From Halarcobacter anaerophilus (GTDB lineage Bacteria > Campylobacterota > Campylobacteria > Campylobacterales > Arcobacteraceae), in NCBI RefSeq assembly GCF_006459125.1, contig NZ_CP041070.1, positions 1,736,001 to 1,800,000 of the forward strand: a DNA stretch of 64,000 nt, read 5' to 3'. The translations under genes and the position numbers were made by a program. Under the pieces are notes generated by a model. It worked only from the letters and a program-made list of their open reading frames with translations, made no database searches and had not been told where the DNA came from. How positions within the stretch are numbered: the first letter of the stretch is position 1; every line of letters begins with the position of its first letter. This document shows, piece after piece, positions 4,870 to 55,630 of the stretch.

Positions 4870-6651
4870 TTGCTCAAACCTATGGAAAAAATAGACCTAA
4901 AATATATTTGGAAGCTACTTCTTCATAAAAAAAGAGCCCTGCTCTTAGGTCAGTTTATTACGATTATTGCTATTTTAGTTAATGTTCCTATTCCTCTTAT
5001 GCTTCCTGCTTTAGTTGATGAAGTTCTATTGAATAAACCTGATTTTTTTATAAATTCGATTAATGAATATTTAGGAATAGGAAACTCTTTATATTATATA
5101 TTAATTGTTACAAGTGCCGTTGTTTTTTTAAGATTTATATATTTTATTTTAAATGTAGTTACAACAAAAATATTTACTTTTATTTCAAAATATATAACAT
5201 TTAAAATAAGAGAAAAACTGATAAAACATTTGGAAAAAGTCTCTATGAATGAGTATGAAAGCCTAGGAAGCGGTGCAATTGCAGCCAATCTTATTACCGA
5301 TGTAAATACTTTGGATAACTTTATTGTTACAAGTGCAAGTAAATTGGTATCTTCTGTTCTTACTTTGCTTGCCGTTTCTATTGTAATGATTGCAATAGAT
5401 CCTATTTTAGGTATTTTGATTCTTTTTATTCAACCTTTAATAATGTTATTGTCAAGAAAAATCTCACAAAAAGTGGGAACATTAAAAAAAATAGAGAATC
5501 AAGCTATAGAAAAGTTTCAAGATAATATTGGGGAATCTTTGGAGCTTTTTGGACAAATAAAAGCAAGCAATAAAGAGTCATACTTTTTTAATCAGGCAAT
5601 TAATAAAGCAAAAGATATACAAAAAACATCAAATGAATATAACTATAAAAGTGTTGCTTATGAAAGATTCTCTTTTACTATTTTCCTGATTGCTTTTGAA
5701 TCTTTAAGAGCAAGCGGATTAATAATGGTTGCCTACTCTGATTTATCAATCGGTATGATGTTTGCAATGTTTGGATATATCTGGTTTATTATGACTCCCG
5801 TACAAGATATTTTATCTATGCAGTATGCCTATACGACTGCAAACGCTGCACTAAAAAGAGTAAATAGAATATTAAAATTAAATACTGAAAAAAACGGAAA
5901 AGAGAAACTTAATAAAAGTAACAAAGGCATTATAATTGAGATTAAAAATCTAAACTTTTCTTATAATCTAAAAAAAGAGCTTTTAAGAGATATCTCTTTA
6001 AAAATAGAGCCTAAAGAGAAAGTAGCACTTATAGGAGCAAGCGGCAGCGGAAAAACTACACTTGCACAAATTATTGCAGGATTTTATACAAAACAAAGCG
6101 GAGACATCTATTATAATAATATCTCAATTGATAAAATAGATAAAAAGAGTTTAAGAAATGAGATTTTTTTGGTTTTGCAAATGCCTATTTTATTTAATAA
6201 CACTCTTAGATTTAATATTACAATGGGAAATGAAAATATAAAAGATGAAGAGATCTATAAAGCTATAGAAATAGCACAGCTTAAAAAAAGTGTAAATGAA
6301 ATGATAAACGGTCTTGATACTATTGTAGGCAGACATGGAATAAGATTAAGCGGCGGGCAAAGACAGAGATTATCTGTAGCCAGAATGATTATTGCAAACC
6401 CTTCTGTGGTAATTTTTGATGAATCGACATCTGCTTTGGATGTTCATACGGAAGCAAAACTGTTTAACAATCTAAAACCTGTTTTAGAAAATAAAACAGT
6501 TATTACAATAGCCCACAGATTAAGCACGGTAAAAAATGCTAATATGATTTATGTATTAGATAACGGTAAAATAGTACAAAAAGGGACTTCTAAAGAGTTA
6601 GAAGAGGAAGAAGGACACTATTTGGAATTTGTAAAAAGACAATTAATATAA
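4870..6651 (+). CDS. ABC transporter, fused permease and ATP-binding protein
   Basis: A half-transporter of the exporter type, 593 residues from the TTG at 4870 (an in-frame ATG at 4882 is the alternative; neither has a strong ribosome site). Residues about 20-320 form the six-helix type 1 exporter membrane domain. The nucleotide-binding domain has Walker A GASGSGKTT (about 389-397), the ABC signature LSGGQ (about 493), Walker B VVIFDES and the switch histidine in IAHRLST. It should act as a dimer in the inner membrane and export a lipid, peptide or drug; the substrate cannot be read from sequence. The Aat-like gene follows its stop directly. Confidence 0.9.
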   Translation: MLKPMEKIDLKYIWKLLLHKKRALLLGQFITIIAILVNVPIPLMLPALVDEVLLNKPDFFINSINEYLGIGNSLYYILIVTSAVVFLRFIYFILNVVTTKIFTFISKYITFKIREKLIKHLEKVSMNEYESLGSGAIAANLITDVNTLDNFIVTSASKLVSSVLTLLAVSIVMIAIDPILGILILFIQPLIMLLSRKISQKVGTLKKIENQAIEKFQDNIGESLELFGQIKASNKESYFFNQAINKAKDIQKTSNEYNYKSVAYERFSFTIFLIAFESLRASGLIMVAYSDLSIGMMFAMFGYIWFIMTPVQDILSMQYAYTTANAALKRVNRILKLNTEKNGKEKLNKSNKGIIIEIKNLNFSYNLKKELLRDISLKIEPKEKVALIGASGSGKTTLAQIIAGFYTKQSGDIYYNNISIDKIDKKSLRNEIFLVLQMPILFNNTLRFNITMGNENIKDEEIYKAIEIAQLKKSVNEMINGLDTIVGRHGIRLSGGQRQRLSVARMIIANPSVVIFDESTSALDVHTEAKLFNNLKPVLENKTVITIAHRLSTVKNANMIYVLDNGKIVQKGTSKELEEEEGHYLEFVKRQLI

Positions 6652-6661
6652 GGAGTTTATC

Positions 6662-7369
6662 ATAATTTACTATATTACTTTAGAAGATCTAAACAATGAG
6701 TATATATTAAAAAATGAGATTTACTCTAATATGACCGAGAATTACTATTGGAGTGATGATTTTTCTGCACAGTTTTATATGAAAGCTGCAGAGTGTGGAT
6801 TTATAACAACTTCGATGTATACGCAAAACGGTGATTTTGTTTTACTTCCTGAAATTCAATTTGAATATGCTGTTTTAAATTTTGATGAAATAATAATTAA
6901 TAAAAAAATAAAAAAATTAATTAAAGAAAAAAAATATATTTTCTCTGTAAATAATAGGTTTGAAGAGGTTCTTTATAATTTAAAAACTTATCATAAGGAG
7001 TCTTGGATAAATGATGACTATATCAAGATTTTAAAAAAGATCAAAATGATTAAAGAGCATAAACTAAATAAAGAGTTTAAGCTTCTAAGCATTGAAGTGT
7101 GTGAAAACGAAACAAAAAAGCTAATTTCAGGGGAAATTGGATACAAAATAGGAAAAACTTATACTTCTCTATCCGGATTTACTACTAGAGAGAAAAAATA
7201 TAACAATTGGGGAAAACTTCAACTTGTACTTTTAAACGACTATTTAAAAGAAAATGGCTATAAACTCTGGAATTTAGGGCATCCTCAGCTACAATACAAA
7301 ATAGATTTAGGTGCAAAAATATATAATAGAAATGATTTTTTAGCCAAATGGAAAGAGGCATTAAAATAA
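6662..7369 (+). CDS. Aat-like leucyl/phenylalanyl-tRNA-protein transferase homologue, probable ATA start
   Basis: The protein aligns along its length with Aat enzymes of the N-degron pathway. It has the region equivalent to LWPESLHISRS (here LLPEIQFEYAV), a conserved WI (SWINDDY) and the GNAT-like core (ISGEIGYKIGKTYTSLSGF). It ends LWNLGHPQLQYKIDLGAKIYNRNDFLAKW, against Aat's LIDCQ...HTASLGA. Identity looks low, so activity and substrate are uncertain. The frame is open well before the first ATG (6731). A perfect AAGGAG at 6650-6655, overlapping the exporter's stop, lies 6 bases before an ATA codon at 6662. There is no ATG, GTG or TTG in frame between the stop and 6731. Starting at ATA gives M-IYYITLEDLN. 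Confidence 0.65.
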   Translation: MIYYITLEDLNNEYILKNEIYSNMTENYYWSDDFSAQFYMKAAECGFITTSMYTQNGDFVLLPEIQFEYAVLNFDEIIINKKIKKLIKEKKYIFSVNNRFEEVLYNLKTYHKESWINDDYIKILKKIKMIKEHKLNKEFKLLSIEVCENETKKLISGEIGYKIGKTYTSLSGFTTREKKYNNWGKLQLVLLNDYLKENGYKLWNLGHPQLQYKIDLGAKIYNRNDFLAKWKEALK

Positions 7370-54841: not shown

Positions 54842-55630
54842 CTAAATAATTTTAGAAAACTGCTTAAATAGGGTTTTTGCATTATTTGTAGTAAGGTTTT
54901 CAACCTCTTCTCTACTCATATTTAAAAGTTCAGATATTTTATCTGCAACTAAATTAGTATAATAAGGTTCATTTCTTGTTCCCCTATAAGGATGAGGAGT
55001 TAAATAAGGAGCATCTGTTTCAATTATTAGTTTCTCTTTGGGAATTTTAGGCAGTATTTCAACTAATTTTTTTGCATTTTTAAAAGTTAATACTCCGCCT
55101 ATTCCAAAATAGAAGTTATGTTCCCATAAGGGTAGGAGATGTTCACTTGCATTAAAACAGTGAAGAACACCGCCTACTTCTTTTGCATTACTGTTTATTA
55201 AAATTTCTCTTGAATCGTTTGAAGCCTCTCTTATATGAACAATTAAAGGTTTGTTAACTTTTTTAGCAAACTCTATTTGTGCTTCAAAAACCTCTTTTTG
55301 TTTTTTTACTACTGCTTCTTTTTCTTCTTTGTCTTCAGGAAGTCTGAAATAGTCTAATCCACATTCACCCACGGCTATGCACTTAGGATGATTTATATAC
55401 TCTTGCATAACTTTTTCATCATATTTTTCTATATCGTAAGGGTGGATTCCTACAGCAAAAAATATTTCGTCATATTTTTCCGCTAGTTTTATAGCTTGGG
55501 GAAGATCTTTAAAATCCGCTCCGGGGATTAAAAAACCTTTGACTTTGTTTTCAAGGGCATGTTTTATAACATTGTCAATATCATCGTAATATTGTTCGTT
55601 GTCCAAATGGCAGTGAGTATCTATAATTAT
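54842..55630 (-). CDS. tatD: TatD-family metal-dependent hydrolase, probable ATA start
   Basis: 262 residues if started at ATA 55630. The family metal ligands are all visible: DTHCH (here just after the start), GECGLDYF, HIREAS, LHCFNAS and ETDAPYLTPHPYRG. Known members have 3'-5' DNA exonuclease activity. The first in-frame ATG, GTG or TTG codon is TTG 55606, but it lies after the HxH motif and would remove it. Between a stop upstream and that TTG the only near-start codons are ATC, ATA, ATT and ATA. AAGG lies 8 bases before ATA 55630, and that ATA overlaps the TAA of the previous gene as ATAA, resembling a normal ATGA coupling. Starting there gives MIIDTHCHL, the usual family opening. Confidence 0.85.
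   Translation of the reverse strand: MIIDTHCHLDNEQYYDDIDNVIKHALENKVKGFLIPGADFKDLPQAIKLAEKYDEIFFAVGIHPYDIEKYDEKVMQEYINHPKCIAVGECGLDYFRLPEDKEEKEAVVKKQKEVFEAQIEFAKKVNKPLIVHIREASNDSREILINSNAKEVGGVLHCFNASEHLLPLWEHNFYFGIGGVLTFKNAKKLVEILPKIPKEKLIIETDAPYLTPHPYRGTRNEPYYTNLVADKISELLNMSREEVENLTTNNAKTLFKQFSKII

Follow-up and report, generated by a model that had tools for sequence, protein, structure and literature searches.

The aat-like gene in the window analysed here, a stretch of 64,000 nucleotides from Halarcobacter anaerophilus, starts with high probability on the AUA codon at position 6662, as comparison of its orthologues indicates. We consider it very likely that this is a deliberately weak start that depends on a Shine-Dalgarno sequence (SD), is used by the initiator tRNA with formyl-methionine, is probably coupled to the operon and has a low output. 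Initiation at AUU, AUC or AUA (AUH in the following, with NTG for ATG, GTG or TTG) is regarded as almost non-existent among bacterial genes; here it is conserved within a family in several genes, one of which gained it repeatedly. This kind of start is already known from infC, pcnB and ccpN, and the papers searched contain no description of the gene, of its repeated gain or of the family-wide set.

Results and Discussion

Start of the aat-like gene

The start follows closely on an ABC transporter gene (Table 1), whose TAA stop codon (6649–6651) overlaps the SD, so that the SD begins inside the stop codon. Between AAGGAG and ATA lie the six bases TTTATC, and the codons following ATA are ATT TAC TAT ATT ACT TTA GAA GAT CTA AAC. 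On the 5′ side the frame is closed by a TAA at 6644–6646, with TAT AAG GAG TTT ATC in between, and on the 3′ side it stays open to the TAA at 7369. The initial annotation had placed AAGGAG six bases before ATA and had counted 23 codons without ATG, GTG or TTG before the ATG at 6731; direct reading of the sequence bears out both.

Table 1: Features of the aat-like locus and of the tatD-family gene in the window.
Feature	Position	Strand	Basis
ABC transporter gene	4870..6651	+	ORF list; Pfam ABC_membrane and ABC_tran; sequence
Shine-Dalgarno sequence AAGGAG (TAAGGAG from 6649)	6650..6655	+	sequence; almost every AUH orthologue has an AAGGA-type SD 4–7 nt before its start
Putative aat-like start codon ATA (AUA)	6662..6664	+	ATT, ATC, ATA or ATG at the same position in orthologues; spacing of 6 is the mode of the genus
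Codon 2 (ATT), possible secondary AUU start	6665..6667	+	ATT in 15/15 same-genus genomes
aat-like gene, 235 aa, predicted leucyl/phenylalanyl-tRNA-protein transferase fold	6662..7369	+	PF03588; AlphaFold2 model; PDB fold match
First in-frame ATG, probable internal Met codon without SD	6731..6733	+	ATA in L005; other residues in g13 and g9
tatD-family gene, putative ATA start at 55630-55628	54842..55630	-	AAAAAAGG at 55646-55639; PF01026, E 7e-81

Orthologues of the aat-like gene were gathered from 100 and then 104 genomes, and their 5′ regions were aligned at codon 1, which corresponds to position 6662. The window's own genus (g1), one genome of which bears the name Halarcobacter sp. (L266), contributed 15 genomes with the 5′ end of the gene, and in these codon 1 is AUU in eight, AUC in three, AUA in two and AUG in two, one of the latter with an SD (L015) and one without (L012). 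None of the 15 has an in-frame ATG, GTG or TTG 5′ of codon 1, and in L008 and L014 an in-frame TAA stands just one codon before it. An SD is found 6 nt 5′ of codon 1 in most of these species, and 6 nt is also the commonest distance between AAGGA and ATG (130 of 417 genes, counted over three same-genus genomes), which agrees with the earlier view that the ribosome site is well placed. The gene thus presents the picture of a near-cognate start, with no NTG at the real N-terminus, an AUH at SD spacing, and this AUH kept among relatives of which some have an NTG at the same place. The proposed start consequently stands as far as its position is concerned, while the conserved property is AUH, mostly AUU, and not AUA as such. 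As a side observation, the search table lists a single in-frame TAG for the orthologue in L013 (G014), perhaps only the terminal stop.

The AUG at 6731 is the first canonical in-frame start and would be chosen by gene finders restricted to ATG, GTG and TTG, and its methionine is kept in 14 of the 15 same-genus species. Initiation at this codon, with the 23 preceding codons as an untranslated leader and the SD as a coincidence, is nevertheless very improbable. An SD precedes this AUG in none of the species compared, just as the initial annotation had argued that AAGGAG does not serve it; the codon is ATA in L005 and encodes Lys or Asn in g13, and the methionine is not conserved outside the genus. 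The next canonical start after codon 1 varies even within the genus (mostly codon 24, a TTG at codon 5 in L008, codon 52 in L005), and in no same-genus genome does it have a well-placed SD. Moreover, the differences in codons 2–23 among the same-genus genomes are distributed over codon positions 1, 2 and 3 as 708, 179 and 939, a coding pattern, and the alignment of N-termini that had been proposed as a check finds the 23-residue extension in every complete same-genus orthologue, with ATG exactly at the position of 6662 in two species.

The codon next to AUA, AUU 6665, was considered as the main start or as a partner used in tandem. Its conservation is in favour of this, as every one of the 15 same-genus genomes has ATT as codon 2 although ATT makes up only 52% of the Ile codons, and the AUC start of g9 aligns with the codon-2 column. 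However, its distance of 9 nt from the SD is shown by just 30 of the 417 genes, far fewer than the 130 at 6 nt. Each of the 24 genomes of g1, g13 and g15 has an AUN at codon 1, which is unexpected for a non-coding triplet, and ATG is seen at codon 1 in two same-genus species and never at codon 2. We therefore regard AUU 6665 as an improbable main or tandem start and retain AUA 6662.

A separate start would be unnecessary if a frameshift or stop read-through fused the product to the ABC protein, whose stop codon lies just 10 nt 5′ of ATA. Yet the ABC stop stands in no fixed register to the aat-like frame, the offset being 13 nt in L001 and 14 nt in L008, and between the two there are in-frame stops. 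The frameshift fusion was rejected on the differing offset, and a fusion of either kind is extremely improbable.

Start types in the wider relatives

Outside the genus, an AUH start behind an SD is found in six of six g13 genomes (a group including Malaciobacter halophilus, L315), in three of three g15 genomes, in both g9 genomes and in one genome each of g14 and g20. In most relatives from Aliarcobacter, Poseidonibacter, Sulfurovum and Sulfurimonas the gene has an ATG, GTG or TTG 2–7 codons 5′ of codon 1, usually without an SD, so their proteins include the 23-residue segment, a further argument against initiation at 6731. Four Sulfurimonas-like genes carry ATC or ATT where the ancestral ATG stood, together with an SD (TAAGG, AAGGA, TAAGGAG and GAGGGA).

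A start could be assigned in 113 relatives, which are related to one another, and 30 of these starts are AUH and 83 NTG. An SD accompanies all 30 AUH starts and 16 of the 83 NTG starts, although the former figure is partly circular as in some rows the choice among AUH codons went to the one with the best SD. In a tree of 87 proteins seven changes of start type are needed, at least four of them forced by starred branches. Judged from these sequences, the AUH start was gained repeatedly in this gene family, and weak codon and strong SD occur together.

The 67 NTG orthologues without an SD show a -10-like hexamer 5–8 nt 5′ of the start in 19 cases (12 of 56 after dereplication), compared with 1–3 in adjacent 4-nt windows up to 24 nt from the start and 6–7 in two windows farther out. 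Loci of this leaderless-like appearance, with an ATG or TTG that lacks an SD and follows the hexamer at this distance, occur in Poseidonibacter, Aliarcobacter and Sulfurimonas-like genomes (e.g. L279, L292, L270 and L022).

Nature of the gene product

The protein matches PF03588 (Leu_Phe_trans) over residues 70–207 with an E value of 1.2e-13 and 51.3 bits, above the family cut-off of 22.7 bits, whereas the score for the aat equivalog TIGR00667 (31.8 bits) is far below the curated cut-off of 143.55. A search of the PDB by sequence profile gave no match. An AlphaFold2 model built from ten orthologues reached a pLDDT of 91, and its best PDB matches in Foldseek are structures of E. coli Aat, an enzyme of the N-end rule (2cxa, TM 0.72 over 210 columns, about 20% identity, E 1.5e-12). 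At C1:1963742 the genome carries another Aat-like gene, which is similar to this one only distantly. From the domain and fold match, the low TIGR00667 score and this second gene, the product is predicted to be a relative with the Aat fold and not a standard Aat: it shares fold and Pfam family with the E. coli enzyme and differs from it in falling under the equivalog cut-off and in having another Aat-like gene beside it in the genome. Residues 1–30 are confidently modelled inside the Aat domain (pLDDT 85–92), so that the first 23 residues, which had been described as an ordinary protein start, are indeed conserved and ordered parts of the predicted fold; this also argues against their being an untranslated leader.

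AUH starts in other genes

The initial annotation described the aat-like gene as "also" starting on AUA, and the other gene meant is most likely the window's minus-strand tatD-family gene. In the start region of that gene (55646-55628), the ATA overlaps the TAA stop codon of the upstream gene as ATAA. The tatD start is AUA in 17, AUC in one and AUU in one of 19 family genomes, and in nearly all of them the next ATG, GTG or TTG lies beyond the metal-binding HxH motif. The AUAA overlap is found in 17 genomes, its place being taken by the usual AUGA in two outgroup genomes. Ten genomes from other families were compared as well, and there the gene has ATG, GTG or TTG at the same place or one codon off. 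A strict pattern for the tatD start had no match in 27 genomes, being too strict to be informative.

A permease of the AEC type likewise has AUC or AUA as its apparent start in all 19 family genomes, with an in-frame TTG lacking an SD 11 codons farther 5′ in three of them, and has ATG, GTG or TTG near this place in other families. Its SD sits in a hairpin (TCCTTT..AAAGGA) in most members of the genus (L095:12502-12552, corresponding to G000 C1:152502-152552; loci L218-L234), the stem bases of which co-vary in L233 (GTCCTTT/AAAGGAC). More reading frames with an SD and ATA, ATC or ATT, and with no ATG, GTG or TTG before the conserved region, are located at G000 C1:335313(-), 275756(-), 251314(-), 182709(-), 180825(-) and 1101898(+). 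Among their products are an EAL protein, histidine kinases and also a DEAD-box helicase, and in one genome rsmA is a further candidate. The aat-like gene thus appears to be one of several genes with an AUH start in its bacterial family.

The bare motif AAGGAG-N6-ATA is at chance level, with 58 matches in the 3.02-Mb genome and 78 for the reversed control, and the case for the aat-like start therefore rests on the orthologues. We also counted, among 1,822 called genes of four genomes, SD-spaced positions at least eight codons 5′ of a first ATG, GTG or TTG that itself lacks an SD. Here AUH accounts for 14 of 464 positions and other codons for 15 of 3,068 (Fisher p = 4e-6), suggesting AUH starts at roughly 1% of the genes in g1 and g13 genomes. 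One Aliarcobacter genome shows no AUH excess, its 350 genes yielding a single AUH candidate and a single other codon; the genome-wide excess thus varies within the family. A relaxed comparative scan of all genes was noisy because of conserved leaders and served only to confirm candidates. The orthologue evidence for AUA 6662 outweighs both count statistics.

These counts (14 in 1,822), and the presence of AUH in genes as unrelated as tatD, the AEC permease, those for the EAL protein and the histidine kinases and, in one genome, rsmA, might also reflect a general relaxation of start choice in the lineage, through a change in IF3 or the ribosome, with neutral drift from AUG to AUH and a weak start without function. 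We consider this unlikely, though far from negligible. Neutral drift predicts frequent reversion from A to G, and ATG is found in 0 of 19 tatD and 0 of 19 AEC starts; the AUH of the aat-like gene is paired with an SD, the initiator tRNA looks normal, and the Aliarcobacter scan speaks against relaxation as well. An altered initiator tRNA as the cause of the AUH starts was rejected, as the sequences have the normal C1/A72 and GGG/CCC features.

Model of initiation

In the deliberately weak start that we favour, the strong SD UAAGGAG would position the 30S subunit over AUA 6662 at the optimal distance of 6 nt, and the initiator tRNA (anticodon CAU), although mismatched at the third position, would place formyl-methionine at the head of the 235-residue protein with the predicted Aat fold. 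As the SD begins inside the ABC stop codon, translation of both genes is probably coupled, and ribosomes terminating on the ABC gene would supply the start. The weak codon would hold the output low and would be maintained on purpose, its third base shifting among A, C and U and seldom to G. IF3 would discriminate at AUA 6662, and the output would be expected to rise when IF3 activity limits.

For low yield and IF3 control we draw on other species. In S. aureus conserved AUA and AUU starts behind extended SDs are proven, with reporters at about 10% of the AUG level, and such starts can react to the growth medium (PMC13009471). The genes ccpN, cvfC1 and infC of Staphylococcus and Bacillus (PMC13009471) resemble the aat-like gene in an AUH start conserved between species, a strong SD, a normal downstream protein and their discovery as annotation gaps. 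They were shown by ribosome profiling and reporters, whereas the aat-like start is deduced from comparison; unlike in these examples, AUH was gained repeatedly in one gene, and several unrelated genes within one Campylobacterota family have it as well. Weaker GUG and UUG starts are known to accompany stronger SDs, and a switch from AUG to AUU was found once among 61,358 reconstructed AUG starts (PMC5622118). A Ribo-seq paper on C. jejuni had no match for AUU, ATT or ATA starts.

E. coli has two genes with an AUU start, infC and pcnB, and IF3 discriminates against AUU (PMC9410913). The inefficient start limits or regulates their expression, and the aat-like start may be likened to them, although its product is known neither as a translation factor nor as a poly(A) polymerase. 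The AUU start of infC as in E. coli was not found in the family, where infC starts on UUG behind a GGGAG-type SD in 14 of 14 loci (L074-L087), so that IF3's classical AUU loop has no direct counterpart there. High levels of IF3 also discriminate against leaderless mRNAs (PMC9031893). Control of the AUH genes of the family by IF3 is a fair hypothesis. A wider proposal is that the Arcobacteraceae-like AUH genes (aat-like, tatD, AEC permease and perhaps tens more per genome) answer to start-codon stringency, that is, to the IF3-to-ribosome ratio, and that the aat-like gene alternates in evolution between two IF3-sensitive modes, SD with AUH or AUG without SD, the latter in part leaderless-like; this we put forward as a speculation that is rather unlikely to hold.

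Conclusion

The AUH start of the aat-like gene looks deliberate and weak and not like an annotation slip. If this is true, gene finders restricted to ATG, GTG and TTG would trim at least 23 residues from AUH-start proteins, and in most tatD genes the trimming would remove the metal-binding HxH motif. The family would then be a natural test of what a weak start is for, be it low output, operon coupling or the sensing of IF3, a purpose made testable by the trade-off between AUH with an SD and AUG without one.
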